DNA of 64,000 nt, taken from a virus. The stretch lies in the IMG/VR virus record IMGVR_UViG_3300050123_000043, positions 33,829 to 97,828 of that record. The stretch is one strand, 5' to 3'. Both the position numbers and the translations under genes were made by a program. Shown piece by piece: positions 1,713 through 48,899 of this stretch. Under the pieces are notes generated by a model. It saw nothing but the letters and a program-made list of their open reading frames with translations. It did not search any database and had not been told where the DNA came from. Numbering within the stretch: position 1 is the stretch's first letter; each line of letters opens with the position of its first letter.

Positions 1713-1734
1713 TAATTTTATGATTTAGTTTTTG

Positions 1735-1782
1735 AGGCACTGTGGAAGTGGTATTTAACCTGACCACAGTGCCTTTATTTTT
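1735..1782 (+). terminator. Rho-independent terminator after the capsid gene
   Basis: An 11-bp stem (AGGCACTGTGG at 1735-1745 pairing with 1764-1774) is followed by a T-rich run ending at about 1782. It lies just after the stop of the capsid gene and would let that gene be expressed at a higher level than the fibre genes downstream. Confidence 0.85.
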
Positions 1783-1834
1783 AATATTATTTATTCATAT
1801 TAAATTTTATCAGTTTTTTAAAACTGTTCTAGTT

Positions 1835-6930: not shown

Positions 6931-6956
6931 CCCCCGTTTCTACGGGGGTTTTTTTT
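6931..6956 (+). terminator. Rho-independent terminator closing the head-fibre operon
   Basis: CCCCCGT at 6931-6937 pairs with ACGGGGG at 6942-6948, with a 4-base loop and a run of eight T. It separates the head-fibre operon from the following cassette. Confidence 0.92.
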
Positions 6957-6976
6957 ATAACACTTTTTTGTTATAA
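6955..6976 (+). promoter_or_regulatory. 22-bp palindrome, possible operator (copy 1)
   Basis: TTATAACA, six bases, TGTTATAA. The two 8-base arms are perfect. It ends five bases before the -33 element of the promoter at 6981. Further copies occur at 8403, 8474, 22536, 22577 and 22599. Confidence 0.7.
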
Positions 6977-6980
6977 TTTC

Positions 6981-7010
6981 TTTGTTTTACCGATAATTGT
7001 ATTATCTTTG
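6981..7010 (+). promoter_or_regulatory. Bacteroidota-type promoter for the HTH-phosphoesterase gene
   Basis: TTTG at 6981-6984, 18-base spacer, TATCTTTG at 7003-7010. This matches the -33/-7 consensus TTTG/TAnnTTTG of the Bacteroidota primary sigma factor. Transcription would begin at about 7016, leaving a leader of roughly 12 bases before the ATG at 7028. Confidence 0.8.
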
Positions 7011-7027
7011 TACAAAATGTGTTCATT

Positions 7028-8371
7028 ATGGGTAATAAGGAAACTTTACGTCAACAAGTTAATGAGTTTATTAAACAAAATCCTATAAAGTACAGAGAAA
7101 GAGGATGTTATAATGAATGTGCTGAGAAGTTTGGATTGACTGCTGAACAGGTTAGGAGAATATATAGAACTTTGAGGAAAAGAGCGTCTGTTAATTATTA
7201 TCATGTGGAAATTCCAGAAAGTACTTTAACAACAGCTTCAAATAGTTTTAAAGAAAACGTTAAAACCGGAGAAGCTGATCTTATAACTGTCACTAATAAG
7301 CGTATCAAGACCCTGGGTGATCTTATAGCAATTTGCGAGATAGATCTTGAAATCTGGGACATAATTACATGGGAATGTAACAAATGGGAGGTCGGTGCCA
7401 AGAACGCAGCTAAAGAAATCGTTGTATCGCCCCTTTTCCAGGTCAAGGCGAAGTTATCTCGTAGGAAGATAGATACTGACCTTCGTTTACAGAAAGAGGC
7501 CCTCCTTGAGGAGCTAAAGGGCTTTAAACCCAATTACGATCTGGATGTCATTAATCGTATACATACCGGGATTCTGAGACCGGATAATCAAAGGCTCCTG
7601 GAGATCTGTATTTTTGATCCTCACTTTGGTAAGCTGTCCTGGAGAGAAGAAGCCGGGGAGGATTATGACATCAAGATCGCAGAAAAGAGGGTTAAGGACG
7701 CAATTAAAGATTTACTGAGCGAAGTTAACCTATCTACAGTTGAAAGAATCCTGTTACCCCTTGGTAATGATCTCATTAACGTAGACAGCAGCAATAATAT
7801 GACTTTCGCTGGTACCCCACAGAGCACCGATGTAAGGTATCCTAAAATAATCAAGGTCGTTCGTAGAGTCCTGACCCAGATCATTTTAGATCTTTCCCTA
7901 ATCGCTCCTGTGGATGTGGTAATTGTACCAGGGAACCACGATACGATCTCCTCCTTCATGATGGGAGAGATCCTGGACGCTACATTTTCCAGTAACCCGC
8001 GTGTAAACGTGGATAACGGTCCAAAATTAAGAAAATACTACAGATACGGTCTAAATTCTTTTCAATTTTCTCACGGAAATGAAGAGAGGCATGAGGCTCT
8101 TGGATTAATCTTTGCTACAGAAGAAAAGAACCTTTGGGCGGCAACAAAGTTCAGATTCTCGCAACTCGGTCATTATCATAAGAATAAGAAGATCAATTAT
8201 GTTAGCGTGGATGAACACCAGGGATTCCAGATTCAGATTTTGCCCAGTTTATCGGGAGTAGATGCATGGCACTACAAGAAGGGATACAAATCTCTTCATC
8301 AGGCCAAGGCATTACTTTACGATAAAGATAAGGGGCCAGTCGGTGAATTTACCACAACCTCAACCCTTTAG
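7028..8371 (+). CDS. Helix-turn-helix protein fused to calcineurin-like metallophosphoesterase
   Basis: 447 residues from the ATG at 7028 (a GTG at 7019 is also in frame). Residues 25-50 form a helix-turn-helix (YNECAEKFGLTAEQVRRIY). Residues 190-400 carry the full binuclear metal signature: D197-x-H199, G246-N-D248, G302-N-H-D305, S348-H-G350 and G381-H-Y-H384. Such enzymes hydrolyse phosphodiesters, often nucleic acid. The gene has its own promoter and its own terminators on both sides, is visibly richer in G+C from about 7280 on, and breaks the structural operon, so it behaves like an acquired cassette (moron). Substrate unknown; a nuclease or DNA-end processing role is plausible. Confidence 0.8.
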   Translation: MGNKETLRQQVNEFIKQNPIKYRERGCYNECAEKFGLTAEQVRRIYRTLRKRASVNYYHVEIPESTLTTASNSFKENVKTGEADLITVTNKRIKTLGDLIAICEIDLEIWDIITWECNKWEVGAKNAAKEIVVSPLFQVKAKLSRRKIDTDLRLQKEALLEELKGFKPNYDLDVINRIHTGILRPDNQRLLEICIFDPHFGKLSWREEAGEDYDIKIAEKRVKDAIKDLLSEVNLSTVERILLPLGNDLINVDSSNNMTFAGTPQSTDVRYPKIIKVVRRVLTQIILDLSLIAPVDVVIVPGNHDTISSFMMGEILDATFSSNPRVNVDNGPKLRKYYRYGLNSFQFSHGNEERHEALGLIFATEEKNLWAATKFRFSQLGHYHKNKKINYVSVDEHQGFQIQILPSLSGVDAWHYKKGYKSLHQAKALLYDKDKGPVGEFTTTSTL

Positions 8372-8375
8372 ATAT

Positions 8376-8398
8376 AACCCCCTTTTAGGGGGTTTTTT
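8376..8398 (+). terminator. Rho-independent terminator after the phosphoesterase
   Basis: CCCCC at 8378-8382 pairs with GGGGG at 8388-8392 around TTTTA, followed by six T. It insulates the cassette from the ring-protein operon. Confidence 0.88.
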
Positions 8399-8402
8399 AT
8401 TT

Positions 8403-8495
8403 TTATAACAAAATTTTGTGATAATTTTCCTAAATAAGAAAATATTCCATAATTTTGATCATTCTGATCAAATTTATCACAAAATTTTGTTATAA
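8403..8495 (+). promoter_or_regulatory. Leader with two exactly inverted 22-bp palindromic motifs (copies 2 and 3)
   Basis: The 22-mers at 8403-8424 (TTATAACA...TGTGATAA) and 8474-8495 (TTATCACA...TGTTATAA) are exact reverse complements of each other. Between them, 8453-8474 holds another dyad (TTTTGATCA, TTC, TGATCAAAT). The whole 100-base gap before the ATG at 8504 is thus made of inverted repeats. No clear TTTG/TAnnTTTG promoter is seen here, so this may be a phage-specific promoter or an operator region for the tail operon. Confidence 0.65.
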
Positions 8496-8503
8496 TTTTT
8501 ATT

Positions 8504-9196
8504 ATGCCTACCGTTTCTCAAGTAATATCCGATGTAAGACAAGAATTAAATGCCGTAAGTCTGGATGGTTATATACCGGCTAAGTTCATACATTCCAAGC
8601 TGTTAGACGCTGCTAAACTATTTATTAAAAGAGAAGCCGATGATCGTAGGCTTTATTTATACCCAAATGTTTGGGTAACAATTGACGATCTTGAATTGGC
8701 CGAAACCGAACTCATAGGATGTGCCGATATTGCAGTTCCCTACTGCACCAAGATAATGAAGTCCACAGTTAGGCTTCCTGAGATCTATACTACCCGGTAT
8801 GGTTATCTTTTAAATATTAGTTCAGTAGACTATACAAGGAACTATATTCAGACTACTCCCAAACAATACAATTCCATAAAAAATAGAAAATATCAAGATC
8901 CTAATCTTAGATATTTTTGGATTTATAATAATCACCTGGTCATTCCGGAGGCAATGGTTAAGTCTGTTACTCTGAGGGCAATGTTCTGCGATAAGGCTCA
9001 AGGTCTTAGAATTGAAGGTTGTAAGGACCCAGGTTGTATTAAGACACTGGAACAGGAATTTACGGTACCCGGTCATCTTCTTGATAATGTTAAAGATTAT
9101 ACCGTACAAAAAATTGCAGGTGTTAAATTAAAAATACCTAAAGACGAATACCCTAATTTAAACGAAGGTAGAAAACAAGGGGACGAAACCAAATAA
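8504..9196 (+). CDS. Ring / head-tail connector protein (crAss-like)
   Basis: 230 residues. It opens with a helical segment (SQVISDVRQELNAVSLDGYI, then KFIHSKLLDAAKLFIKREADDRRL) and continues with a beta-rich part containing two Cys near residue 185. This layout, and its place just before an IHF-like gene and a second connector, fit the ring proteins below the portal in crAss-like phages. It is the first gene of the tail operon, right after the palindromic leader, and abuts the next gene by 2 bases. The family is recalled from gene order rather than from a catalytic motif. Confidence 0.65.
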   Translation: MPTVSQVISDVRQELNAVSLDGYIPAKFIHSKLLDAAKLFIKREADDRRLYLYPNVWVTIDDLELAETELIGCADIAVPYCTKIMKSTVRLPEIYTTRYGYLLNISSVDYTRNYIQTTPKQYNSIKNRKYQDPNLRYFWIYNNHLVIPEAMVKSVTLRAMFCDKAQGLRIEGCKDPGCIKTLEQEFTVPGHLLDNVKDYTVQKIAGVKLKIPKDEYPNLNEGRKQGDETK

Positions 9197-9198
9197 TA

Positions 9199-9723
9199 AT
9201 GCCAGCCAAAGGATCAGTTCTAAAATACGGGAATAGAGATTACGTGGTTAATAAAGATTTCTATAATAAACTTATAGAAAAAAACGATATTGGCCTTTCC
9301 TATTCAGAGGTATCAAACGTTATAAAAGAACATACAAAAAACATAGCCGAAGTGGTCGAAGATGAGCTTGATGGTTTTAAATTACCAAAGGGTCTTGGCT
9401 ATATCTGTGTAGTCAAATACAAATCTACAAAGCTATCAATAAACTTTAGAAAGACAAAAGAGATTGGTAAAAAAGTATATTTTACTAATCTTGATACAAT
9501 GGGTTTTTGCGTATCTGTAAAGTTATTTAGAGTAGGGAGACCAGGTAATAATTCTTTTTATGATCTCTTTATGTTTAAGCCTTGTAAAAAGATAATGCAA
9601 TCTGTTGTAAGAAAATTTAAATTGGGAAAAGTTTATTCAGATTATACTATTTCCGATTTTATGGAAAAAAGCCGATTAGAAAATTTATATTCTAAAAGGT
9701 ATAGAAAAGATTTAAAGAAATAA
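9199..9723 (+). CDS. IHF/HU-fold protein of the tail module
   Basis: 174 residues. Residues 30-75 have the HU/IHF pattern of two helices followed by a turn and strand: SEVSNVIKEHTKNIAEVVED, then LPKGLGYICVVKYK in place of the usual GFGxFxV. crAss-like phages carry an 'IHF subunit' gene exactly here, between two ring proteins, and the fold is used as a structural ring or plug rather than for DNA bending. The C-terminal part is basic and extends beyond a typical 95-residue HU. Structural role inferred from position. Confidence 0.6.
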   Translation: MPAKGSVLKYGNRDYVVNKDFYNKLIEKNDIGLSYSEVSNVIKEHTKNIAEVVEDELDGFKLPKGLGYICVVKYKSTKLSINFRKTKEIGKKVYFTNLDTMGFCVSVKLFRVGRPGNNSFYDLFMFKPCKKIMQSVVRKFKLGKVYSDYTISDFMEKSRLENLYSKRYRKDLKK

Positions 9724-9724
9724 T

Positions 9725-10675
9725 ATGGGAGTTATTAATCCAGAAAATACGCTTCAGTTTAGATCCACTGCACAACTTTTCAGTAGGGTTAAAGATAAGC
9801 TGAAGTCATTTGATTCTCAAAACATGATTGATGAAGGAACCTTCTTTGATCATGTTGCTTATATATTGGGTCAATTGGGTGCTGCTGTTTATAAGGAATG
9901 TGAAGCTGTTATTGAGGTTAGAGATCACAGAGCGGCATTACCTTGTAATTTTAAATTGTGGTATGCAGCATACAAATGTCATCGTGGTCATGAGGGACAA
10001 GGTGCTCCAGATATAAATGAACAAAACAATTTTGGTCAACCTTTTATATTTATACAACAGATAGAAGAATCTGTTATTTGTCCTGAAAATTGTTGTATAA
10101 GCTGCGATAGAGGTAATGAAAAATCAAGAATAGTTGTAAGAAACTTTGTAAACGGACATAGATTTGAAAATCATTTTCATGAACCTATGCCTCTTATTCT
10201 TAGTCCAAACGTAAAAGATAAATGTGCTCCTGAGTGTATGAAAGTTGTTCATGCTGGATGGAATGAGGTTACAATAGCTGATGGATTTATAAGAACGAAG
10301 TTTGACAAAGATTGTATTTATATGCAATACTTCGGTATACCGATTGATAAGGATTATCTTCCTATGATCCCAGATGAAGAAAGTATTGAAAAAGCAATCG
10401 AATATTATATTTACAAAATGCTTTTTGAAGAGTGGTATTTAAATTCAGCCGTTCAGAATATTGTTCAACAACTACAATACGCTTCTGCTGAATATGATAA
10501 ATATCTTACCCAGGCAAGATATTGGTGTAGACTTCCATCATTCCAGAAATGTTTACAGATGGTTAGAATTCAGAGACAGAATAACAAATTTTATCAATTC
10601 AATGTTGATAAAACAGTAGTAGGTTCAAATTATTTTGGATGGGGTGGTGAGCATGGAGGTTATCGTAGATTTTAA
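9725..10675 (+). CDS. Ring / tail connector protein (crAss-like)
   Basis: 316 residues. A helical N terminus (residues 10-80) is followed by a Cys-rich beta part (CPENCCISCDRG near residue 120) and a C-terminal helical part rich in Tyr and Trp (residues 215-285). It ends in a Gly-rich tail (GWGGEHGGYRRF). It lies between the IHF-like gene and the muzzle gene. In crAss-like phages this slot holds another of the stacked ring proteins of the short tail. No enzyme motif. Confidence 0.6.
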   Translation: MGVINPENTLQFRSTAQLFSRVKDKLKSFDSQNMIDEGTFFDHVAYILGQLGAAVYKECEAVIEVRDHRAALPCNFKLWYAAYKCHRGHEGQGAPDINEQNNFGQPFIFIQQIEESVICPENCCISCDRGNEKSRIVVRNFVNGHRFENHFHEPMPLILSPNVKDKCAPECMKVVHAGWNEVTIADGFIRTKFDKDCIYMQYFGIPIDKDYLPMIPDEESIEKAIEYYIYKMLFEEWYLNSAVQNIVQQLQYASAEYDKYLTQARYWCRLPSFQKCLQMVRIQRQNNKFYQFNVDKTVVGSNYFGWGGEHGGYRRF

Positions 10676-10686
10676 AATAACAATTA

Positions 10687-13600
10687 GTGGCAAATCGTTC
10701 TAAAAGTATATCACAGACAATAAAGGGTATGATCTGGGACCTGCATCCAATGCACTTCTCAGACGGCATGTATGCTTTTGCTCAGAATGCTGTTGTAGAG
10801 GGTATTGATGGTAATGGTTTTCCGGTTTTGCAGAACGAACCAAGTAATACGCTTGGTGTCAATTTTCCTTCCGGCTCTACTGTAGTAGGGTTTACTGTTG
10901 TTCCCGAACAAAGTCGTATTATTTGGATGTTAGCCTTTCCTGAAACAGGAATGTCTGAAATAGGAGAAACCCTAAATCCTGATATTTGTCGTCAGTTTGC
11001 TAAGAACGCCCTGGGAAGCTGTGATGATTGCTCTTTGAATTTATTGGAAACAACTCCTTTGGAAAGCGGTCCACAAACCCCTTGTGCTAATTATACTACA
11101 ATACAACCAGACGCATGTCTTAATTTTACTACTGCATTTCCTGTAACATCCAGTACATATAGGTTAACAGACTGTACTTTACAATTGGTGTTTACTGATG
11201 CTAATAATGCAAGAAGATATTTGGAATTTAATTACGTAAATGATGATCCTACGCAAGGATTGGTTATAAGAAACATTTTTTATCAAATAATTGGTTTTGC
11301 AAACCCTCCTTGTGATAATCCTATATATGGTCCTAATTTAGATTGTAATGCTTTAAACATACAGCCTAATTTTGAAACACCTTGTATTCAGTTTGACGGT
11401 TTAACGGGGGGAGGATCTAACCTGGCCGGGGTATATCAGTTCTTTATTGCAATGTCTGATATTAACGGAGTTACCCTTTCTTCTTATTTATCGGCTACAA
11501 ACCCAATACCTATTTTTACTAAGGCGGTTACTGTTGCTACAAATTATCCTACAGACCGGTCAATAAAGTTGACGATTGAGAATTTGGACCCAACTGGAGC
11601 ATTTCAATATTATACTCTTGCTGTTGCAAAAACTATTGATGGAGTAACTTCATTCTTTTTAGTGGGGAACTTCCCTGTTACTCAAACACTATATACCTAC
11701 ACAGGAAACAACCCATCTGAAATACCTTTAACAGCAGAGGTTATTTTTGCTTTATACCCATATTATGAAACTGCTGGAACAGTAGGGCAATCAAATGGTA
11801 TATTGTTTTTTGGAAATGTTAAAGAATATCCTAGACCAAATCTTCAAAGGGTTGCAAATGAAATTATCCTTCAATGGCAAACAATTGCCATACCTGAAGA
11901 AGTTTATTATGACCCAAACAACGTTGTAGAGTTTAGGAGTGCCATGAGAGATGAGGTTTACCCTTATGGTATTCAATTTATCTGGGCGTGGGGTGATGAA
12001 TCAAACGCATATCATATACCGGGTCGTGTAGCAATAGCTTCTGATTTGGAAATAATAACTAATGATGACGTTGTATCCCCAGATAATTGTTCAGGAACCC
12101 CTTTAGATCAAAGATGGCAGGTATATAATACGGCTACTATTTTAGGTGGAGATCTTTCTATTTATAATGGTTGTATAGAATCTTGTTATCAATATGGAGA
12201 TTTCTCTTATTGGGAATCAACCGAAACTTATCCAAACCTTCCTTTAATTTGGGGAGAACTTTGTGGTTTCCCTATTCGTCATCATAAATTTCCTGATTCA
12301 TTAGTTACCCATATTCATAATCGTCAGAACGGGACTGTTGATGCATCTGGGGCAACTTTTCATCAGAATAATATTGTATATCCTATTGGGGTTAAGGTAG
12401 ATCATGATAGTGTTAGAGCGGCAATAGCAAACGCGGTTACCCTGGGGTTAATAACGGCTACTGATGCTGCAAATATAGTCGGTTACAGAATTTTGAGGGG
12501 GAACAGGGTTGGTAATAAATCGGTAATTGCAAAAGGTTTACTATATGATGTTAACCAATATCAAAGAGTTGATATGGGGAATGGTAATAATTCTGTTGTT
12601 GACCTGGAACCTATTTTCTTTGCTAATTATCCATATAATGATTTAAGGTCAAATCCTTTTTTGACAAATAACTTTGAGAACTATGCGTTAAATAATATAC
12701 CAGAGGGTCCTGATTTACCTTTTACCTTTTCTAATAGATACACCTTCCATTCCCCTGACACTCATTTTAATCAACCTGGGCTTGGTACAGAGTTAAAATT
12801 GGAGACTGTAGAATACGGACAGTCACAAGGATTTTATAATAAATGTCAAAAACAACCTAAAGAAAAATTATTATCTGAGTTTTCTTATGGTCTTGCTTTT
12901 ACTGGCGGTACCGCTCTTGCGATAGCGAAATTGGCTCCTCCAAGAACCTCTTCATATACGGTAAAAGGAACTATTGAAACAACAGGTACTATACCAGAGA
13001 TGCAGTTTGCAGATGGTACTTCTTCTACCACCCTTCCATCAACTCCGGCAGATTATGATTTAATGGCAAAACATTTACCTCTTGCTGATAATACAATTTT
13101 GGATAGAGGGTTTGGTACTAAAACATATGATCCGTTAATTGCCGATGAGTATACTATTGTAAATACACCTTCTGCTGTGTTTCAAAATCTTAGCCCAACT
13201 GCGGCAGATGCTATTGGACAGGGTTCAGATAACCCTGATATGGCTGCTCTTGGGGTATTTGCTTCTGCACTGGGTATTATAGGTTTATTAGGAGGATTAG
13301 TATTTATACTTAGTCAGATATTATCTGAAATGACTGTGATACTTGATCTTATAGATGCTCTTGTTCCTTATAAAGATTGGGCGATTCAATATAATTCGAT
13401 TGGAAAATATAATGAATATACAACAGTCGCAAACGATAATGGAGTTAAAAGAAGAGTTATTTCAGCTTGGGATTATTTAGATGATACAAATCAATTTGTA
13501 AATGAACCAGTAGATCCAATAACAGGATTATTTGATGCTATTAAATTTAATAACCTATATAGAGAAGACTCTGTTTATTTAAAATACGCAGGAGACGCTT

Positions 13601-15756
13601 TTCCAGATGCGGGAACATCTTCTGGAATTGTAGATACAAGTAGGACGAGATTATCTGATTTCCCTTTTAATTGTACACTAAATGTTCCAAAGTATGAACC
13701 AATTTCTTCTTATTATGCGTCTATTAAAAATTATATTCCCGATCAATATGGGACGATTTATAATATTCAATATTTAAGAACAGGTTCTTGTGCGTTCGAT
13801 ATGAATGTTCCGAATAGTTTATGTCGCGGAGTGTATGGTGGGGATACTTTTATAAGTAGATTTGCGCTTAAAATAAAAGTTCCTTATTTTTTATCAACTG
13901 CTTTTGAGCTTCCTGATGGAACAGATTTTGATTATTCTCAGATAACAAATCTTGCTTATCCAAGATATTATTTTAATAATACACCAACCGTAGGATCTGG
14001 TATAGCTGGTTTATCTATTGCTACTTTTACAAGTATTATTTCCAGTATAGCGTCTATTTATGAAGCATTAGGAGGCCCAAGTAGTATAAGAGATTGTGCA
14101 AGTTCGAATTTATTTGAACAGATTGGATATATTTATCTATATCATTATGGTATTCCATTCTTTTTTGCTGAATCCGATTATGATGTTGATTATAGATATG
14201 CGATAGATAATTTAGCAGGGGACTTTTACCCTCATCAGGGAGATCTTGATTTTTGGTTACAGGAAATAAACGTTCCTATAACTGAACCAAATCAGTATCA
14301 TTATAATAATACTTATTCTAAACAGAATACAGAAACTTCAATTGCCATAGACGCTCCTAACTTTATGCCTGGTAGAGCGTGTACTGTGAATTTTCCAAAT
14401 AGAATTATTTCATCGGATAATCAAAATTGGTTTACATTTCCGGCAAATGATTTCTTTGATAATCCTTTAACCGATGGTACTATTATTTCCATAGACGGTA
14501 TAGAAAACCAAACAGTGCTTGTTCGTAGTTTAAATAAAACAAGTATTTTTAAATCAATTTTAAGAACAGTAGTAGATGGGCAGACGGTCCAGATTGGAAA
14601 CGGGGGAGTATTCGCCAACCCTCCACAAGACTTTGGTACAACAACGCTAGGTTATATTGGAACTCAAAACAGAGGAATCTTACATACTGAATATGGTCAT
14701 ATTTGGGCAGATGCAAAAAGAGGCCAGGTATTTAATATGGCAACTGGAGCATCAGGGGTAGATGAAATTTCTAAAGATGGAATGAAAAACTGGTTTAAAG
14801 AGAATTTACCGTTTCGTTTGCTTAGAGACTTCGCTAACATGCCTGAAACCGATATAGATAATAACTTTGTAGGAGTCGGATTAATTTATTCTTTTGATAA
14901 AAGAAATAATAAATTCGCAATGACAAAGCGTGATTGGAGTGTTACTAATCCAAATGTATTCTATGATTCTACCTTAAAACAATTTTATATTTTATCAGGT
15001 AATACCCACATACCGGTAGCGTTAGGAGATCCAAAATTCTTTAAGGACTGTTCGTGGACGGTCTCTTATAACTTCTTTACTAAGTCTTGGGTATCGTTCC
15101 ATTCATATAAACCAGATTACTATATTGACTTTATTGACTTCTTTAGTTCAGGTATAAACACACCTACCGGTAGCAGTTATTGGATACATGATTTATTTAA
15201 TGGAAGTTACCAGGTGTTTTATGGAAAACTGTTTCCTTTTATTGTGGAACCTGTGGCTAAGTTTGAAGAACAACTGAAAATGCTTGGTAGCCAAGAGTTT
15301 GATACAGAAGTGAGACGTTATTCAAATGAATTTGATTATACACTTAAAAAGGACATTCCTGGATTCAATAAAGCTATTGTATATAATGATTTTTATAATA
15401 GTGGTTTAAACCACTTAGTAAAGGTAGATAAAAACGACTTTAGTAAATCAGGATCATATCCGATAAAAGGATTTAATCACTGGGATATTGAAGTTGCTGC
15501 CGCAAATTATAAATGGAGATTTAACCAGTTTTATGCTTTAAATAAAGATAACACCGAAATTCCATTCTGGCTATATGCTGGCAATAATGAAGAAAAGACA
15601 TTAAATCATTTAGCGTTTAACTATCTTAAAAACGATTATGATCTTTCCCGGTTAAGAGGACAGTGGTTTAAGACAAGACTTATAAATGATTCATTGAGTA
15701 ATTATAAGATCATTTTTAAATTTAATAAAAACGATCAAACCTTACAATTTAGATAA
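10687..15756 (+). CDS. Large tail tube / muzzle protein (crAss-like)
   Basis: 1689 residues, starting at GTG 10687. The N terminus (SISQTIKGMIWDLHPMHFSD, then YAFAQNAVVEG and NEPSNTLGV) fits the opening of the very large tail protein that follows the ring proteins in crAss-like phages and forms the lower tail or 'muzzle'. The middle is beta-rich with many paired Cys. A hydrophobic stretch near residues 852-880 (LGIIGLLGGLVFILSQIL) could be a buried plug or interact with the host membrane. The last 300 residues are aromatic-rich. Confidence 0.7.
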   Translation: MANRSKSISQTIKGMIWDLHPMHFSDGMYAFAQNAVVEGIDGNGFPVLQNEPSNTLGVNFPSGSTVVGFTVVPEQSRIIWMLAFPETGMSEIGETLNPDICRQFAKNALGSCDDCSLNLLETTPLESGPQTPCANYTTIQPDACLNFTTAFPVTSSTYRLTDCTLQLVFTDANNARRYLEFNYVNDDPTQGLVIRNIFYQIIGFANPPCDNPIYGPNLDCNALNIQPNFETPCIQFDGLTGGGSNLAGVYQFFIAMSDINGVTLSSYLSATNPIPIFTKAVTVATNYPTDRSIKLTIENLDPTGAFQYYTLAVAKTIDGVTSFFLVGNFPVTQTLYTYTGNNPSEIPLTAEVIFALYPYYETAGTVGQSNGILFFGNVKEYPRPNLQRVANEIILQWQTIAIPEEVYYDPNNVVEFRSAMRDEVYPYGIQFIWAWGDESNAYHIPGRVAIASDLEIITNDDVVSPDNCSGTPLDQRWQVYNTATILGGDLSIYNGCIESCYQYGDFSYWESTETYPNLPLIWGELCGFPIRHHKFPDSLVTHIHNRQNGTVDASGATFHQNNIVYPIGVKVDHDSVRAAIANAVTLGLITATDAANIVGYRILRGNRVGNKSVIAKGLLYDVNQYQRVDMGNGNNSVVDLEPIFFANYPYNDLRSNPFLTNNFENYALNNIPEGPDLPFTFSNRYTFHSPDTHFNQPGLGTELKLETVEYGQSQGFYNKCQKQPKEKLLSEFSYGLAFTGGTALAIAKLAPPRTSSYTVKGTIETTGTIPEMQFADGTSSTTLPSTPADYDLMAKHLPLADNTILDRGFGTKTYDPLIADEYTIVNTPSAVFQNLSPTAADAIGQGSDNPDMAALGVFASALGIIGLLGGLVFILSQILSEMTVILDLIDALVPYKDWAIQYNSIGKYNEYTTVANDNGVKRRVISAWDYLDDTNQFVNEPVDPITGLFDAIKFNNLYREDSVYLKYAGDAFPDAGTSSGIVDTSRTRLSDFPFNCTLNVPKYEPISSYYASIKNYIPDQYGTIYNIQYLRTGSCAFDMNVPNSLCRGVYGGDTFISRFALKIKVPYFLSTAFELPDGTDFDYSQITNLAYPRYYFNNTPTVGSGIAGLSIATFTSIISSIASIYEALGGPSSIRDCASSNLFEQIGYIYLYHYGIPFFFAESDYDVDYRYAIDNLAGDFYPHQGDLDFWLQEINVPITEPNQYHYNNTYSKQNTETSIAIDAPNFMPGRACTVNFPNRIISSDNQNWFTFPANDFFDNPLTDGTIISIDGIENQTVLVRSLNKTSIFKSILRTVVDGQTVQIGNGGVFANPPQDFGTTTLGYIGTQNRGILHTEYGHIWADAKRGQVFNMATGASGVDEISKDGMKNWFKENLPFRLLRDFANMPETDIDNNFVGVGLIYSFDKRNNKFAMTKRDWSVTNPNVFYDSTLKQFYILSGNTHIPVALGDPKFFKDCSWTVSYNFFTKSWVSFHSYKPDYYIDFIDFFSSGINTPTGSSYWIHDLFNGSYQVFYGKLFPFIVEPVAKFEEQLKMLGSQEFDTEVRRYSNEFDYTLKKDIPGFNKAIVYNDFYNSGLNHLVKVDKNDFSKSGSYPIKGFNHWDIEVAAANYKWRFNQFYALNKDNTEIPFWLYAGNNEEKTLNHLAFNYLKNDYDLSRLRGQWFKTRLINDSLSNYKIIFKFNKNDQTLQFR

Positions 15757-15757
15757 G

Positions 15758-16837
15758 ATGCCAGATACTAGCGGAACAAATTATAGTTTTTTAAATGATT
15801 ATATTTCTAAAATAATTGGAGACTCTGATAAAGTTGACAACAATGTTTCAGAAGAGGATGATGATCATTTTTATGATGTTCCTGATGAGGATGACACCTC
15901 TGATGAGAATAATGATATTCAGTATAGTATGAATTCTAATGAGGATGACAATTCTGATGAAGGCGCAAGATTAGCTAATGATTATCTTCATGAAACTGGT
16001 GATCCGGATACTACCGATAGTGACTATGACACTGAAGATGATACTGATCAGGATTCTATTTATGGGCAAGGCGATACGGGAAGTTATTCTGATAGTGCTC
16101 CTTCAAACCCTGACTATTCATACGTTAGTAGAAATGAAGATCCTGAAAACAGCGATTTAGGCTCTAAGATAGCGTCTAAAGAAAGTCAAGGGAAATATGC
16201 AGCGTTTAATTCAGCCGGTGGTGGGGCAGGGGCCGTTGGTAAGTATCAGTTTAGATGGAATATTTGGAAAGATTCTATCCAAAAGGTAACCGGAGTAAAA
16301 AGTAAAGATGAGTTTTTAAATAACCCTAAAGCCCAGGAAAAATATTACGGTTGGTATGAAAAGAATTATTTAATACCTGTTGCAAGGAAGTTACAACCTT
16401 ATAATAAGAAAGGATTATCTGAAGACCAGATGGCTGAATTAGTTCATTTTAGAGGTGAAGACGGTGCCAAGAAGTATTTACAAGGAACTGCTTCAGATAA
16501 GCCAGAGAGGTATAATATGTCAACCTCCAAGTACATAGCTACTAAGCAACATGGTGGTGGGGGTGGAGGAGGAATGGGGGGAGGAGGCGGTGGACACGCA
16601 GGAGGTGGGGGAGGAATGGGCGTAGCAATGAGTGCTTCGGCTCAACATACTGGTTTAAACAATCCATCCTTTGATCATATGCTGTTTCCAATGCATGGTG
16701 AAAATGAATTTAGGGGATTGGATGATGGATCAGAAGTATACTTGGAGGATGAGTATGGGAAGAAGAAAAAGCTGAAAGGAAAGCATCATAAAACAACGAT
16801 GAGAGGTCACGTATTTGAAACTCGTTTAAATAGATAA
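15758..16837 (+). CDS. Virion-associated lytic transglycosylase-like protein
   Basis: 359 residues. Residues 1-130 are strongly acidic and low in complexity (Asp/Glu/Ser). Residues 132-230 look like a transglycosylase/lysozyme-like fold: KIASKESQGKY places the likely catalytic Glu at 142, followed by AVGKYQFRW and a downstream helical part. Residues 265-290 are a Gly-rich linker, and the C terminus is basic. The expected role is local digestion of peptidoglycan during DNA entry, as the gene sits among virion genes and away from the late lysozyme at 48162. Confidence 0.65.
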   Translation: MPDTSGTNYSFLNDYISKIIGDSDKVDNNVSEEDDDHFYDVPDEDDTSDENNDIQYSMNSNEDDNSDEGARLANDYLHETGDPDTTDSDYDTEDDTDQDSIYGQGDTGSYSDSAPSNPDYSYVSRNEDPENSDLGSKIASKESQGKYAAFNSAGGGAGAVGKYQFRWNIWKDSIQKVTGVKSKDEFLNNPKAQEKYYGWYEKNYLIPVARKLQPYNKKGLSEDQMAELVHFRGEDGAKKYLQGTASDKPERYNMSTSKYIATKQHGGGGGGGMGGGGGGHAGGGGGMGVAMSASAQHTGLNNPSFDHMLFPMHGENEFRGLDDGSEVYLEDEYGKKKKLKGKHHKTTMRGHVFETRLNR

Positions 16838-16839
16838 TT

Positions 16840-18321
16840 ATGGCAAAGAAATGGAAACGTCAAACAGGCGGTAATAAAAGAGATGTACATTTTATAAAAA
16901 TGAGCATATCTCAGGCACAACAGGGGGGTTTTGTACCTAAAGAAGATCCTAATAATCCAGGGTTTGATCTGCAAGGTAATCCTATTACCCGTTCTTCTCA
17001 AGATTATCCAGAATTAGAACAAAATCCAGATGCCAATATAGATGTTACAGGTAATCTTGCAGCACAACAAAGACAACAAAGACAACAGCAGGGGAATGCT
17101 CCTAATCAGCCTCCTAAAAAAATAGCTTTTCTTGATAGTCCTCAAGGTAAGACCCTTAATCAAGGTATTAGAGGAATTACTGATGTGTCTAATTCTATTC
17201 AAAATAACAAATTACAACATCAGGAAAAACTTCAGTTAAATGAAAGCATGACTCCTAGATTCATGCCTAATCCTAACTCCCAGGGGGCTAATAACGCTCC
17301 TGCCTATACGAAGTATGGTGGGGAAATGAAGATGGGAGGTCCGATTTCACACGGTTCACCAATAGGGGTTGTTGATTCTAATTCAGGCGGTCCTGGACTA
17401 GATGAATCAATGTACGAAGGTATTAATCATGATAGTTTTTATGGACAGGATATGATTTATAGTGGAGAAATGCCAAGATACCGGGCAGGTGGTACTGTTT
17501 CTGCTGATAAAGCTAAAGAAATCCTTCGTGACGGTACAGCCCAGGGACATCCTTTGACTGATAAACAGAAAAGATATTTTGGATGGATTGCGGGTGGTTC
17601 TAAACAAGCAGGTGGATATTACGCTCAAAACGGAACTCAGGCACCGCCTCCAGCAAATGTCCCAGGAGGACAAGACGTTGTTGATCCTTCTAAACTTACT
17701 GATGAATATTATATTCAAAATCAACTACTTCAACAGGATAAAGAGATGCTTAATAATAAATTAAAAGCAAAAAATCCTCAAGGATACGCTAAATATTTTT
17801 CAGGAATGCAAGCCTCTGAAAAAGCGGGTCATAGTCGTGAAGATTATGTTCAAGGTTCTGATTACAATGATTATTTATCCCCTGAAGAGGTAAAAAGCGC
17901 ATTTCCTAATCCTAATGATTATAATAAATATATTAATAGTTTAAAGTCTGTAAATAGTTTCAATGTACAACAGGGACAAAAACCCCTGTATGGTAATATT
18001 GAAGGTGAACAACAAGATCCCACTAAGATTAATTATGGAAGAAGGGCTGCAAGTGTTCAAACCTCTCATCAATATGCTCAAAAGATTGGAAATTATAATA
18101 GAGATTATAAATATAATCCTCAAACACAAGGGGTTGATATTAGCGAAAGCGGTGATCTTTCTAAAAGACCTTCACAGTTTAAACCTATACAGCAACCTCA
18201 GCAACAGCAACAAGTTGCATCAAGACAAACCGGAGGATACTCTGTTGGAGATGAAGTTGAATTAAGTGCTCAGGAAATTAAGGAGTTGAAGAAACAAGGA
18301 TACAAAATAGAAAACATATAA
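16840..18321 (+). CDS. Virion internal (cargo-type) protein, Gln-rich
   Basis: 493 residues, low in complexity, with Gln-rich runs (residues 75-90 and 455-470), Gly-rich patches (GGEMKMGGPISHG, YRAGGTV) and QTGG motifs near both ends. The C terminus (YSVGDEVELSAQEIKELKKQ) is a small folded module I associate with cargo proteins of crAss-like phages. It follows the transglycosylase-like gene by 2 bases. Probably packed inside the capsid or tail and ejected with DNA; no enzymatic motif is seen. Confidence 0.55.
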   Translation: MAKKWKRQTGGNKRDVHFIKMSISQAQQGGFVPKEDPNNPGFDLQGNPITRSSQDYPELEQNPDANIDVTGNLAAQQRQQRQQQGNAPNQPPKKIAFLDSPQGKTLNQGIRGITDVSNSIQNNKLQHQEKLQLNESMTPRFMPNPNSQGANNAPAYTKYGGEMKMGGPISHGSPIGVVDSNSGGPGLDESMYEGINHDSFYGQDMIYSGEMPRYRAGGTVSADKAKEILRDGTAQGHPLTDKQKRYFGWIAGGSKQAGGYYAQNGTQAPPPANVPGGQDVVDPSKLTDEYYIQNQLLQQDKEMLNNKLKAKNPQGYAKYFSGMQASEKAGHSREDYVQGSDYNDYLSPEEVKSAFPNPNDYNKYINSLKSVNSFNVQQGQKPLYGNIEGEQQDPTKINYGRRAASVQTSHQYAQKIGNYNRDYKYNPQTQGVDISESGDLSKRPSQFKPIQQPQQQQQVASRQTGGYSVGDEVELSAQEIKELKKQGYKIENI

Positions 18322-18325
18322 CATA

Positions 18326-18730
18326 ATGAAAAAACAAAAAACCATAATAGAAATTGTTCCTTTAAATAAACAACGTTATGAAACTTTGGGGGATTATTTT
18401 TATGATAAACAAGGTGTTAGACATTTTAAAATAACAGATACTGGCAATGAATTCTATAATGATCTAATTCTTGTGCATGAATTAATCGAAGAAATTCTTA
18501 CAAGAGCAAAAGGTATAAGCGAGAAGACAATTTTAAGACATGACTTGGAATTTGAGAAACTTTTGAAAGACGGAAAAGTTGGTCCAGATGAAGAACCAGG
18601 AGAACATAAAAATTCTCCTTATAGACAAGAACATTTATTAGCAGAAATTGTTGAGAAGTTAATGTTGAATCATTTGAATAGAGAAACATTTAAAGAGTAT
18701 AACAGCAAACTTTATAAAATATTTGAATAA
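18326..18730 (+). CDS. Small conserved phage protein with HELIEE motif
   Basis: 134 residues. The pattern RYETLGDYFYD, a HELIEE helix with H51, E52, E55 and E56, a later DEEPGE and a PYRQEHLLAEIVE helix fits a family of small phage proteins I have seen without assigned function. The His/Glu spacing could bind a metal. The stop codon TAA shares a base with the ATG of the ATP-grasp gene (TAATG), so the two are translationally coupled and probably act together. Confidence 0.6.
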   Translation: MKKQKTIIEIVPLNKQRYETLGDYFYDKQGVRHFKITDTGNEFYNDLILVHELIEEILTRAKGISEKTILRHDLEFEKLLKDGKVGPDEEPGEHKNSPYRQEHLLAEIVEKLMLNHLNRETFKEYNSKLYKIFE

Positions 18731-20019
18731 TGGGAACAGTTGAAATGATACCAGAGGGACTTAAAATTGACTTAAAAGAAAAAGTTGCTTTGGTTTATGA
18801 CAATGGCTTGTTTGTGGAAATTGCTAAAACCCTTTCAAAGTCTTTTAAGAAAGTTTATTATTATATGCCCTGGAAGAACGGTTTCCCAAAATCAAATCAA
18901 TATATAGTTGGTCAAGGTATTGAAGGGATAGAAAGAATTCATGACTTTTGGGATTATGTTGATAAAGCAGATATTTTTATTTTTCCTGATATTTACGATG
19001 GGGATCTTCAATTGGAGTTAGTAAGACAAGGTAAGAATGTATGGGGTGGTAGAAAGGGAGAAGACATGGAGCTTTATAGAGATCGTATGAAACGTTATAT
19101 GAAAAGTGTTGGACTTTATGTAACTCCCTGGGTTTCTATAAAAGGTCTTACTAATTTAAGAGAATATTTAAAAGACAACCCTGATGTTTGGATAAAACAA
19201 AATGTAACGAGAGGGGATTTTGAAACAGCCCAGTCTAAATCATATGAAGAATTCGAACCTGTTCTTGATGAATGGGAACACATGTTGGGAAAGGTAAAGG
19301 AGAATAAAGTATTTATTGTAGAAAAGAATTTAGAAGCTGTGGAAACAGGTCTTGACTGTTATACAATAGATGGGCAATATCCGAGTCAGACGTTATGTGG
19401 TATAGAAGTAAAAGATTTAGGTTATGTTGGCAAAGTTATGCCGTATGATGAAATCTCTGATAAGATTACGGATTTTAATGATAAAATTATTGGTGCATTT
19501 AAAGCTTATAATTACAGAGGGTTTTTTAGTACTGAAATAAGAGTTAGCGAAAACAAACCCCCTTATATGGTTGACTTTTGTGCTCGTGCGGGTTCTCCTC
19601 CAAGTGAACTTTATCAGCTTATGTATAAAAATCTTGCTGAAATTATTTGGTACGGTGCTCAAGGTTTTATGATTGATCCTATTGTTAAACACGCTTATGG
19701 CGTTGAGGCTCTTATTCATTCTTCCTGGGCAGATAAGAACTGGCAGAAAATTACTTTTCCACCGGAATATAGAAACAATATTAAATTAAGAAATGCTTGC
19801 GTTATTGATGGATGTTATTATGCGGTTCCGCAATCTGTGGGTCTTCCTGAGATTGGTGCCGTTGTTGGGGAAGGGGATACTATGGAAGAGGCTATTGAGC
19901 AGGTTAAGAAAATTGCTCAGACTATTTCTGGTCATTACGTAGAAATAAAAATTGAATCAATAGATAAAGCACTTGAACAGTTTAATGAATTAAAAAAGTT
20001 TGATATTAAAATTATATAA
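18730..20019 (+). CDS. ATP-grasp family ligase
   Basis: 429 residues. The layout follows the ATP-grasp fold, closest to phosphoribosylglycinamide synthetase-like forms. There is an N-terminal pre-ATP domain (residues 8-95), then GGRKGEDMELYRDRMKRYMK, the lysine-containing strand WIKQNVTRGDFET, a VEKNLEAVETGLDCY strand and a metal-site strand YMVDFCARAGSPPSEL near residue 285. ATP-grasp enzymes join a carboxylate to an amine through an acyl phosphate. The substrate is not evident. The gene sits within the virion operon, coupled to a small HELIEE protein, which suggests modification of a virion or cell-envelope component. Confidence 0.72.
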   Translation: MGTVEMIPEGLKIDLKEKVALVYDNGLFVEIAKTLSKSFKKVYYYMPWKNGFPKSNQYIVGQGIEGIERIHDFWDYVDKADIFIFPDIYDGDLQLELVRQGKNVWGGRKGEDMELYRDRMKRYMKSVGLYVTPWVSIKGLTNLREYLKDNPDVWIKQNVTRGDFETAQSKSYEEFEPVLDEWEHMLGKVKENKVFIVEKNLEAVETGLDCYTIDGQYPSQTLCGIEVKDLGYVGKVMPYDEISDKITDFNDKIIGAFKAYNYRGFFSTEIRVSENKPPYMVDFCARAGSPPSELYQLMYKNLAEIIWYGAQGFMIDPIVKHAYGVEALIHSSWADKNWQKITFPPEYRNNIKLRNACVIDGCYYAVPQSVGLPEIGAVVGEGDTMEEAIEQVKKIAQTISGHYVEIKIESIDKALEQFNELKKFDIKII

Positions 20020-20034
20020 TATGCAATAAATTTG
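19999..20034 (+). promoter_or_regulatory. Weak candidate promoter before the HNH gene
   Basis: TAAATTTG at 20027-20034 matches the -7 consensus, but the nearest TTTG (19999-20002) is 24 bases upstream, longer than the usual 18-21. Half-sites related to the palindrome family (TTGTTATA, TGTGACAA) follow at 20032-20048. Confidence 0.35.
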
Positions 20035-20060
20035 TTATATTGTGACAAACTTTAAATATT

Positions 20061-20561
20061 ATGGGTAAAACTAAAAATACAACAGTTAAATGTAAAGAAT
20101 GTAATAAAAAGTTTAGAAAACATTCTTGGACTAATCAAAGATTTTGTTCTCAACGTTGTTATTTTAAATATATTAAAAAGAAAAAAAGAGTTGTTACTAA
20201 TTGTGAAGTTTGTAATAAAGAATTAAGTCTTCATCGTTCTTTGATTAAGAGAAATAATTTGAATTATTGTAGCAGAGAATGTTATGACAATAGAAGAAAA
20301 GAAAATCTTAAAAGATTAAAAAGAGGAACAAAATATTATGATGATTTATTATCACTTTCTAAATGTAAATGTGGGGAGAATAAAAAATATTTATTACAAA
20401 TACATCATGTAAATGGTAACCATAATGATAATTCTCCTATAAATTTAGAAATAGTTTGTGGGAATTGTCATATAAAAAAACATTTAAAGAAAAATAAAAA
20501 TAATGAGTGGTGTTATCATCCTAAATCATTAACTCCTTTAAAAGAGTTAAAAAATGTATAA
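20061..20561 (+). CDS. HNH homing endonuclease with tandem zinc fingers
   Basis: 166 residues. Residues 10-75 contain two Cys4-like fingers (CKECNKKF...CSQRC and CEVCNKEL...CSREC), usual DNA-contact modules of free-standing phage HNH enzymes. The catalytic region is near residues 112-142: LQIHHVNGNHNDN, then a CGNCH pair. The gene sits between virion genes, uses very A-rich codons and carries its own small leader. These are signs of a selfish gene inserted into the operon. Most likely a homing endonuclease that cleaves related phages lacking the insert. Confidence 0.85.
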   Translation: MGKTKNTTVKCKECNKKFRKHSWTNQRFCSQRCYFKYIKKKKRVVTNCEVCNKELSLHRSLIKRNNLNYCSRECYDNRRKENLKRLKRGTKYYDDLLSLSKCKCGENKKYLLQIHHVNGNHNDNSPINLEIVCGNCHIKKHLKKNKNNEWCYHPKSLTPLKELKNV

Positions 20562-20563
20562 TC

Positions 20564-22534
20564 ATGAAAGTAAGAATTGCGGGGATTCCTAAAATTGTAA
20601 ATGCTACAAAAAAAGTTAGAATAACAAAGGTTCCCAAAGCTAAAACAGGGAATTGGATAAAAGGCGCGGTTAACCCCGCCCACCGTGGATATTGCACACC
20701 TATGACTAAGGCGACTTGCACTCCCGCAAGAAAAGCATTTGCTAAAAGAGCTAAAGCGCACAAACTTCAATCAGGTGGTGATACTCCTATTACACACGGT
20801 CTTCCAGAAGATCAGCATCATTTAGCTAATATCGAAGCTGAAGGTGGGGAAGTTTATCAGAATCAGCAAGGTGGATTTAGGAAGATAGCAGATAGTGCTC
20901 CAGATCATGAACAAGGGGGTGTAATGATTCCTGATGCTGAACGTGTTTTAGAAGATACAAGTACTTCAAGGAAAGATAAATATTCTAAGAAATTAAAAAT
21001 GTCTCCGACTGAGGTTGACACAATTTTTGGATTTAAACCAAAGAGACCGTTATCTCATGCTGAAGCTTTTGATTCTGTAAATGAACATTACGATAAAGAA
21101 GTTGATAAATATAATGGTAAATTAAAAAACACCAATGATGAAGAAACTTTGGATAAACTTAGTGCAAACACGGTAAGATTGAATATGCTCAATAGAGATA
21201 TTGTTCCTGGAAAACAGGATGTGTTTAATACTCTATTTGAACATCAAGAAGCTATAAAAGCAGTTCATCAAATTCCAGATGATGGTAAACAAAAATATGG
21301 TGGGTTTAAACCAAGAATCAAAGTTCAAACAGGCGGTGACGCAACCGATAATCCTGATCTTGGGCTTTATAGAGGTCCTAAGAATCCTGCTAATAGATTT
21401 ACTCCGACCGGAAAAACTTCTGAAGCGAAGTTAACTGATAAGCAAATTGTAGATTCCTACAAAGCAGCCGGTGTTGATTTTGGTACTGCAAGAGGATCAG
21501 ATTTACAGGACAAGATATATAATTATCTTATAGAAAATCAGCCCGAAGTTCTCAAGGCATCCCTGAAGGAATACGGTGCAAACAAAAAAGCTTTACAGGC
21601 CGGTAAGGGTAAGATTAAGGCTTTTAGTGATCCTGATAATGCTACAAAAGAAGATTTAAAAGCTGCATTACCGTATCTTAAGGATTCTATGCTTGGGGCC
21701 AGAATTCCTATACCTACTACAGAATCATCTCAAACTCCGGGTCCGGGTGGTAACGCTGCTCCTCCGGCAGCGGATCGTCCGTTTGTTCCAAAAACAGGAA
21801 CTCCTGATGCTACTGGGAACCCTCAATCTGTTAAAGAACCTGAAAATAAGTTCCATGAAGGAACTCATTGGTATGATATTGCTCCGGCTGCTGCTGAACT
21901 TGCAGATTCGCTTAGAAGGGACCCTGAGCTTTTTAACCCAGTTCAGTATCATCAATTAAAGTATAAGCTACTGAATCCATCTGCTGCTCTGTACGCTAAC
22001 CAGGCTGACTATGAGGCGGGTTTACATTCCCTAGAGGGTCAAAACCTTGGTTCGGGGGTAAATGCCGCTAATGTGTCTAATTTGACCGCACAGAAGTATA
22101 AGGCAAATAACCAAGTTTTAGGACAGTATGAAAATCAGAATACAGAGATCCAAAATAAGGAAACTGAGTACAATACCCAGGTAAGAGACAAGCAATCAAT
22201 GTCCGATGCCGCAACAAGGGCTAATTTTTACAGTAATGTATTGAAATCCAGAGATAATCAGAGAATACAGAAGCTTCAGGCTATCCAAGATCTTAGCCGT
22301 GTACAGCAATTAAAGGCTCGTCAGAACACTAGTGGGAATTTAGTATCCAAGTTAAGCCCTGCTTTCGATCAGAGCGGTGAATACAATGGTTATCAATACG
22401 TTCCAGTAATTGACCCTGAGACAGGGGAAACCCAATCATACATGAAGAAACCAGGTAAGTCCAAAACTACGACTACGACTAGTTATAAGATTGGAAACCG
22501 TAATATAAGAAGCGCAACTACAGATTCTCAGTAA
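20564..22534 (+). CDS. Virion internal (cargo-type) protein
   Basis: 656 residues. It has a basic N terminus with a NPAHRGYCTPMTKATCTPARK motif split over residues 37-57, then QSGGD. A following module (NIEAEGGEVYQ ... HEQGGVMIPD) recurs in internal proteins of crAss-like and related phages. Residues 180-260 are helical, 390-410 Pro-rich, and 500-620 a long helical, Gln/Asn-rich stretch that probably forms coiled coils. It is separated from the ATP-grasp gene only by the inserted HNH gene. Probably ejected with the genome. Confidence 0.6.
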   Translation: MKVRIAGIPKIVNATKKVRITKVPKAKTGNWIKGAVNPAHRGYCTPMTKATCTPARKAFAKRAKAHKLQSGGDTPITHGLPEDQHHLANIEAEGGEVYQNQQGGFRKIADSAPDHEQGGVMIPDAERVLEDTSTSRKDKYSKKLKMSPTEVDTIFGFKPKRPLSHAEAFDSVNEHYDKEVDKYNGKLKNTNDEETLDKLSANTVRLNMLNRDIVPGKQDVFNTLFEHQEAIKAVHQIPDDGKQKYGGFKPRIKVQTGGDATDNPDLGLYRGPKNPANRFTPTGKTSEAKLTDKQIVDSYKAAGVDFGTARGSDLQDKIYNYLIENQPEVLKASLKEYGANKKALQAGKGKIKAFSDPDNATKEDLKAALPYLKDSMLGARIPIPTTESSQTPGPGGNAAPPAADRPFVPKTGTPDATGNPQSVKEPENKFHEGTHWYDIAPAAAELADSLRRDPELFNPVQYHQLKYKLLNPSAALYANQADYEAGLHSLEGQNLGSGVNAANVSNLTAQKYKANNQVLGQYENQNTEIQNKETEYNTQVRDKQSMSDAATRANFYSNVLKSRDNQRIQKLQAIQDLSRVQQLKARQNTSGNLVSKLSPAFDQSGEYNGYQYVPVIDPETGETQSYMKKPGKSKTTTTTSYKIGNRNIRSATTDSQ

Positions 22535-22535
22535 T

Positions 22536-22620
22536 TTATAACAAAATTTTGTTATAAATTTCGGATTTACAGGAAATTATAATAAATTTGTGTGATAAAT
22601 CTCACAGAATTTTGTTATAA
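22536..22620 (+). promoter_or_regulatory. Three 22-bp palindromic motifs in tandem (copies 4-6)
   Basis: Copy 4 at 22536-22557 is a perfect palindrome (TTATAACA, AAATTT core, TGTTATAA). Copy 5 at 22577-22598 (TTATAATA, six bases, TGTGATAA) contains a TAAATTTG that fits a -7 box. Copy 6 at 22599-22620 has a degenerate left arm (ATCTCACA) and perfect right arm, and ends one base before the ATG of the GIY-YIG gene. Copies 5 and 6 are directly adjacent, as expected for cooperative protein binding. Confidence 0.65.
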
Positions 22621-22621
22621 A

Positions 22622-23347
22622 ATGATAGGTATTTATAAAATAACGTCTCCGAGTGGAAAAGTCTATATTGGACAGAGTTGGACTATTGAACTTAGGTTGT
22701 CTAAATATAAGCAGACTAAATGGGACAAACAACGGAAATTATACTGTTCTTTTAAAAAATATGGTCTTGAAAATCATAAATTTGAAGTTGTTCATGAATT
22801 ACCGGTAGATGTGGAACAAGAAGTGCTTGATAGGTATGAGCAATTGTATATGGATCTTTATAGGGATTGTGGAATCGAATTATTGAATTTGAGGGAGGGT
22901 GGAAGTAGAGGAAAACTTAGTGAAGAAAGTAAAAAATTAATGTCTGATTCTCGAAAGGGTACAAATTTAGGACATACTTTTAATAATGGCAGAAAGCATT
23001 CTTATGAAACTAAACAAAAACATAGTGAAATTTCCAAAATAATTAATTCTACTATTGAATATAAGGAAAACATGAGAAAGTCTATTATAAATAGCGAAGC
23101 TCATAAAAAATATAGAGAACGATTAAAAGAAGAAGGAAGATTAGGAATACATAAAACATACGATAGGAATGGATATACTAAACCTGTTTTACAATTTAGT
23201 AAAAATGGAAATTTTATAAAAGAATGGACTTCTGCATCTGAATTTCAAAAACATAATAATATTATAGGAAAAGGTAATATAGGAAGTTGTTGTAAAGGAA
23301 AATTGAAAACAGCTTATGGTTTTACCTGGAAATTTAAAAATAATTAA
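22622..23347 (+). CDS. GIY-YIG homing endonuclease
   Basis: 241 residues from the ATG at 22622; the frame is open further upstream, but the domain begins at MIGIYKI. Residues 3-85 are a complete GIY-YIG nuclease domain (GIYKITSPSGKVYIGQSW, then the Glu-containing EQLYMDLYRDCGIELLNLREGG). The middle is basic and helical, and residues 180-240 resemble the NUMOD1 DNA-binding module (VLQFSKNGNFIKEW ... GFTWKFK). A close relative lies at 51390-52073 on the other strand. It separates two cargo genes, as an inserted homing gene would. Confidence 0.9.
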   Translation: MIGIYKITSPSGKVYIGQSWTIELRLSKYKQTKWDKQRKLYCSFKKYGLENHKFEVVHELPVDVEQEVLDRYEQLYMDLYRDCGIELLNLREGGSRGKLSEESKKLMSDSRKGTNLGHTFNNGRKHSYETKQKHSEISKIINSTIEYKENMRKSIINSEAHKKYRERLKEEGRLGIHKTYDRNGYTKPVLQFSKNGNFIKEWTSASEFQKHNNIIGKGNIGSCCKGKLKTAYGFTWKFKNN

Positions 23348-26049: not shown

Positions 26050-26059
26050 AAATTATTAA

Positions 26060-48872: not shown

Positions 48873-48881
48873 TTGTGTGTG

Positions 48882-48899
48882 TTTTTAAACGTTTAAAAA
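48882..48899. promoter_or_regulatory. Perfect 18-bp palindrome after recA
   Basis: TTTTTAAAC followed by GTTTAAAAA, a complete dyad without spacer, in the 32-base gap between recA and the last gene. It may be a protein-binding site or a weak terminator; the T/A runs at its ends fit the latter on either strand. Confidence 0.5.

Follow-up and report, generated by a model that had tools for sequence, protein, structure and literature searches.

A 22-bp palindrome recurs at seven leaders of a distant crAss-like phage, and at each of them the promoter-proximal copy stands at a fixed spacing from a Bacteroidota-type -7 box, a geometry that suggests a phage-made switch turning genes on via the host polymerase. 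The palindromes are real, far beyond chance, and are very probably operators. A dimeric phage protein bound at them probably activates late promoters for the host RNA polymerase. The DNA itself shows the sites, the geometry, the conservation in one close relative and the restriction to one lineage; binding by a protein, its phage origin and its activating role are what we infer from the sequence.

The stretch analysed here (the window) comprises 64,000 nt, positions 33829-97828 of the 97,828-base virus record IMGVR_UViG_3300050123_000043 (G000). Judged by its TerL, portal and major capsid protein, which are related to those of crAss-like phages (phrog_6681, phrog_6547 and phrog_11589), the source is a distant crAss-like phage, and tblastn with the portal matches crAss001, phi17:2 and csAssE-Sib (126 records in all). 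The seven leaders with a palindrome are all in the + strand half of the record, where they serve two tRNA clusters, the terL side, portal/capsid, an SbcD-like exonuclease, a virion operon and an operon with homologues of putative crAss001 RNA-polymerase subunits. These genes are presumably late in G000, to judge from gene function and from studied relatives. About 20 tRNA genes lie at record 11826-20226, ahead of the window, and some of the clusters are headed by palindromes. The minus-strand genes at window 48872-63720 are almost gapless, and host-type -33/-7 promoters are practically absent from their leaders, which would be expected of genes transcribed by another polymerase.

In the available text of earlier work on crAss-like phages, transcription of late genes by the host polymerase is considered probable and the late promoter signal is not named (PMC8375218, PMC10136315, PMC11054128, PMC7886860). 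For the handover from the injected polymerase to the host polymerase at late genes, the palindromes would provide a concrete cis signal, with seven promoters and a fixed geometry. With them come a few candidate proteins and a prediction that could be tested with a reporter in Bacteroidota.

Copies of the palindrome across the record

The preliminary description reported six copies in the window, all of which are found, with the following numbers of arm mismatches: 6955 (0), 8403 (1), 8474 (1), 22536 (0), 22577 (2) and 22599 (3). As described, the 8403 and 8474 copies are exact reverse complements, and the 22577 and 22599 copies are adjacent, the former holding a -7 box (Table 1). The six spacer bases, given as usually AAATTT, have this sequence in only some copies. 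The three leaders to which the family was assigned are real, but the family is bigger: when the search was extended to the rest of the record, nine further sites were found, bringing the total to about 15 copies at seven leaders. Restriction to gaps between genes holds for 11 clearly intergenic sites, but window 22577 and record 26063 slightly overlap an ORF edge and 22599 is nominally coding, as the 22622 gene has a GTG start further upstream from which the reading frame runs through the site.

With up to three mismatches allowed, the window contains 10 matches, compared with 1.78 expected (sd 1.49, maximum 7; 100 dinucleotide shuffles). The remaining four matches (6546, 11264, 37050 and 46241) have 2-3 mismatches, lie wholly or nearly wholly inside ORFs, and appear to be chance occurrences. 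At the same threshold, the 11 clearly intergenic sites of the whole record compare with 0.36 expected from intergenic composition (maximum 4 in 300 simulations). Copies at random positions within genes had been named as the observation that would tell against such a family; the matches within genes are weak (2-3 mismatches) and near the chance level.

Two looser arrangements were also seen. A weak copy (3 mismatches) at record 20845-20866 overlaps a -7 box, TACATTTG, ahead of a conserved gene at record 20875. A small ORF is immediately preceded, at record 9755-9790, by a pair of half-sites arranged the other way round (TTTTGTTATAA-TT-TTATAACAAA), of which only one is retained in the close relative G001.

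Table 1. Palindrome copies, promoter elements and neighbouring genes. Window positions count from the first base of the window; record positions are those of the first base of each copy.
Feature	Window position	Record position	Strand	Remarks
Palindrome copies of one leader		11386, 11408, 11438		
Palindrome copy of one leader		19348		
Palindrome copies of one leader		20304, 20320, 20344		
Palindrome copies of one leader		26063, 26085		
Intrinsic terminator-like hairpin	about 6931-6952			directly before the 6955 palindrome
Palindrome TTATAACACTTTTTTGTTATAA	6955-6976	40783	+	centred 37.5 bp before -7 box (about -49.5)
-33-like TTTG	6981-6984		+	spacer 18, short
-7 box TATCTTTG	7003-7010		+	predicted start about 7015
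SbcD/Mre11-like DNA-repair exonuclease gene	7028-8371		+	phrog_704, E 1.5e-63
Palindrome TTATAACAAAATTTTGTGATAA	8403-8424	42231	+	centred 36.5 bp before -7 box (about -48.5)
-7 box TAATTTTG of the 8504 operon	8450-8457		+	no TTTG at the -33 place; predicted start about 8462
Downstream copy TTATCACAAAATTTTGTTATAA	8474-8495	42302	+	centred about +23.5; ends 8 bp before ATG at 8504
Virion structural protein gene, first in operon	8504-9196		+	phrog_9863, E 2.9e-15
Perfect palindrome TTATAACAAAATTTTGTTATAA	22536-22557	56364	+	centred 36.5 bp before -7 box
Weaker copy overlapping -7 box	22577-22598	56405	+	
-7 box TAAATTTG	22583-22590		+	predicted start about 22595
Downstream copy ATCTCACAGAATTTTGTTATAA	22599-22620	56427	+	abuts 22577-22598; one base before ATG at 22622
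GIY-YIG/NUMOD3 homing endonuclease	22622-23347		+	between the 22536 leader and the 23350 gene; not here in G001
Three large ORFs served by the 22536 leader	23350-36465		+	
ORFs resembling crAss001 gp47 and gp49 (putative RNA-polymerase subunits)	26060-31243 and 31243-36465		+	tblastn E 2.8e-15 and 1.2e-15

Promoter geometry and its conservation

In 7/7 leaders a gap of 25 or 26 bases separates the promoter-proximal copy from a TAnnTTTG, the Bacteroidota -7 box, and the centre of the copy lies 36.5 or 37.5 bp from the first T of that box. The box is exact in six of the seven leaders, and reads TTACTTTG in the record 20344 leader. With the -7 box taken as -12 to -5, the span it has in flavobacteria (PMC9723704), the centres of the proximal sites fall at -48.5 or -49.5, and the sites border on the -33 region. 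Across the whole record, the pattern TTGTNATAA-N22-28-TANNTTTG has six forward, zero reverse and zero control matches. As the density of TA..TTTG is 0.0022 per intergenic + strand base, chance agreement of six leaders to within a 2-bp interval has a probability of the order of 1e-11 or less. Extra copies upstream are often 22 bp apart, that is, two helical turns. The 8504 operon, for which the preliminary description saw no host promoter, has a host-type -7 box at the same spacing.

A -33 TTTG at a spacer of 19-21 is present in three of the seven leaders (record 11486, 19395 and 26132), and two palindrome promoters have a perfect -33 box. The window 7003 box has a TTTG at spacer 18, and window 8450, window 22583 and record 20392 have none. 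At record 12351, 18010 and 18790, for example, promoters without a palindrome have a perfect ATTTGG at spacer 20, but this palindrome-free set was found by requiring TTTG, and a weaker -33 at palindrome promoters than at the others is thus only suggestive.

All seven leaders are found in a close relative, IMGVR_UViG_3300037140_000076 (G001; portal 97%), with the same gap of 25 or 26 bases to the -7 box (7/7). In the 22536 leader, which has diverged, 15 of the 25 spacer bases are identical between the two phages, as are 19/22 bases of the proximal site and 7/8 of the -7 box, and the spacing is unchanged; the G001 counterpart of the 22536 site, TTGTAACAAAATTTAGTGATAA, is in the same place, and that of the 22599 site is TTATAATTAAATTTTGTTATAA. 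In the 6955-type leader of G001 the half facing the -33 region, TTTTTGTTATAA, is kept and the far half has diverged. The 8403 leader differs by a 1-bp insertion 3' of the -7 box, which takes the downstream copy from 71 to 72 bp and leaves the upstream distance unaltered. A third contig, L023, represents almost the same phage. Endonuclease insertions adjoin palindromes at different leaders in the two phages: GIY-YIG in G000, and in G001 an ORF at 105000-105450 that resembles an HNH/NUMOD endonuclease by eye and lies right beside a palindrome leader.

The related phages, which the preliminary description had proposed to search, thus have the motif and its promoter spacing in the case of G001, but no such palindrome at about 45% portal identity (L033, L034, L035, L036, L041 and Lbo-JY46) or about 30% (L037-L040), where plain -33/-7 promoters are found. 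In phi17:2, csAssE-Sib, Lbo-JY46 and ten further records there are only scattered weak matches, and no comparable family lies ahead of crAss001 promoters (genome scanned up to its last 2.7 kb). When viral contigs were searched with the half-site plus -7 pattern, the full palindrome was found only in the G000 lineage among the 81 loci checked, of the matches listed. Within the collections searched, the motif is thus lineage-specific. The record of Leptolyngbya phage Lbo-JY46 (PP438436.1) calls it a cyanophage. It is crAss-like (portal 45%), with many promoters of Bacteroidota type, and its stated host is therefore doubtful.

In phages with about 30% portal identity (L037-L040 and L042), a different element, TTTAAC, is seen just before the -33 TTTG of + strand portal-side promoters, at 4/4 in L037, L038, L040 and L042 and at 3/4 in L039; on the minus strand of L037-L040 and L042 it is at one of two or three promoters. 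It is possibly another lineage's own late-promoter element. One speculative and rather unlikely generalization would be that lineages of crAss-like phages each rewire late transcription via an upstream element of their own abutting the host -33 box (here a palindrome with a HipB-derived activator, elsewhere TTTAAC), with a fast-changing phage activator setting the switch from virion to host polymerase.

Half-sites and candidate binding proteins

The half facing the polymerase is TTTTGTKATAA in 7/7 proximal sites and is the least variable half. Position 5 of the half-site is A or C, and mixed arms occur in 8/15 sites, compared with 7.2 expected under independence. Thus, the arms vary independently, which is the behaviour expected of half-sites read by a dimer and not of a hairpin stem. 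The earlier suggestion that the copies are operators of a phage regulator is supported by these independent half-sites, together with the location at promoters, the fixed distance to the -7 box and the retention in a relative.

The regulator suggested at the same time, an HTH protein encoded at 7028-8371, is rejected: the product is the SbcD-like exonuclease of Table 1, with HTH_28 at only E 0.11. The only convincing HTH regulator among the predicted proteins run against Pfam is a 103-residue HTH_3 protein encoded outside the window (record 1588-1899, minus strand). It matches PF01381 with E 2.9e-10 (40.5 bits, above the cut-off of 23), the HipB-type family TIGR03070 with E 3.4e-16 (58.9 bits, below the curated cut-off of 71.65), and HipB(Lp) 8ezt with E 1e-4. 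Its AlphaFold model (pLDDT 57.5) is too low in confidence for a fold search, and no toxin partner was recognised beside its gene. Residues 1-64 have three differences between G000 and G001, and the tail has diverged. Three relatives without the motif (Lbo-JY46, phi17:2 and csAssE-Sib) have no homologue, so that its co-occurrence with the motif rests on two very close phages with both and three without. Homologues of the 7028 exonuclease and of the record 20875 protein are present in motif-free Lbo-JY46. The HipB-like protein is the best candidate, and may well be what reads the palindrome, though the chances fall a little short of even.

A conserved protein without a recognised domain could be the regulator instead, for example that encoded at record 20875-21222. 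This protein has an AlphaFold model, made without an alignment, with pLDDT 42, no PDB match and no meaningful family match, and it does not really match crAss001 gp13. No Ogr or Mor/C homologue was found among the proteins run against Pfam and PHROGs.

Mode of action and comparison with known systems

Activation would proceed through a phage-encoded dimeric protein that binds the promoter-proximal operator, just upstream of the -33 region, at the seven leaders. The bound dimer would most likely contact the host RNA polymerase holoenzyme and turn on the late promoters, with this contact replacing or supplementing the -33 box of a Bacteroidota sigma-A-type promoter. Extra upstream copies may help binding, and the copies that cover or follow the start site of certain structural promoters (22577, 22599 and 8474) may curb expression once the protein is abundant. 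A constant distance to the -7 box, combined with a position beyond the core promoter, is the geometry of an activator, and the lack of TTTG at spacer 19-21 in four of the seven leaders is modest evidence in the same direction. According to the available text on crAss001 and phi14:2, early genes are transcribed by the virion polymerase and late genes probably by the host polymerase (PMC8375218, PMC10136315), which fits the host-type promoters here. Against activation, three copies are at repressor-type positions, namely 8474, 22599 and 22577, the last on the -7 box, and the two promoters with a perfect -33 box might not need it.

The same operators could instead be bound by a repressor, for example the HipB-like HTH_3 protein, that silences the promoters until late infection. 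Proteins of the HipB/Xre family are mostly repressors, and the candidate is encoded on the minus-strand half, whose expression is presumably earlier. However, the sole site common to the seven leaders lies beyond the core promoter, and its spacing from the -7 box is constant to 1 bp, whereas spacing on the downstream side has shifted. A repressor has no need of such a constraint. Repression is a possible but doubtful alternative to activation.

It is improbable that the sites belong to a host transcription factor borrowed by the phage. The promoters are host-type and the phage origin of the binder is only inferred, but in 257 Gb of bacterial and archaeal genomes the exact 22-mer has one match, unrelated and in a non-Bacteroidota MAG, and none with the spaced -7 box, although exact matching would miss a degenerate regulon. 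Less probable again is that the copies on the start-codon side (8474 and 22599), lying as they do between the predicted start and the ATG, act as RNA hairpins in the mRNA leader and not as DNA operators: the arms of 22599 are poorly paired and do not fold as single-stranded DNA (DNA energies only), and the same motif is untranscribed where it lies upstream of promoters.

The least probable reading, that of N4-like hairpin promoters for a virion RNA polymerase, starts from the polymerase that crAss-like phages carry, in the available text of PMC10136315, and from the ability of perfect copies to fold (-4.6 kcal/mol), but is rejected on geometry, arm independence and folding: a host-type -7 box is at a fixed distance in every leader, mixed arms disrupt the stem, no fold forms in several copies (0 to -4.6 kcal/mol, single strand), the sites are confined to the structural/tRNA half, at tRNA, terL-side, portal, structural and exonuclease leaders, while the virion polymerase serves early genes in the available accounts of studied relatives, and the palindrome is absent from relatives that share the giant-ORF block.

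With activation at operators as the preferred reading, the family can be set beside known systems. The hairpin promoters of N4 virion RNA polymerase are likewise inverted repeats in phage leaders; unlike them, the sites here have no fixed loop or stem conservation, accompany host -7 boxes and are on the late rather than the early side. HipB dimers bind short palindromes in tandem, and the candidate regulator has the same HTH_3 domain as the HipB/Y4mF-type antitoxin repressors; here, however, the candidate gene is without a recognised toxin partner and the geometry looks activating. Bacteroidota sigma-A promoters (TTTG -33, TAnnTTTG -7) share the -7 box, exact in 6/7 leaders, and partly the -33 box, but here the latter is often missing and the palindrome abuts its position (PMC7366714, PMC9723704).

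The closest working analogues would be Mu C and P2 Ogr, with which the family has in common a shared dyad fixed upstream of several late promoters of one phage. The P2 Ogr site is centred near -55. P2 Ogr and P4 delta likewise combine a short dyad at each late operon with a phage activator of the host polymerase, although their dyad is different (TGT-N12-ACA) and Ogr is a small zinc-finger protein (PMC3931495). The promoters of the Mu late activator C are E. coli sigma-70 promoters, and the sites here differ in being often tandem and also near starts; nevertheless, at Plys, PI, PP and Pmom one phage dimer likewise serves several late promoters from a site upstream of a non-consensus -35, with the host polymerase (PMC4461284).
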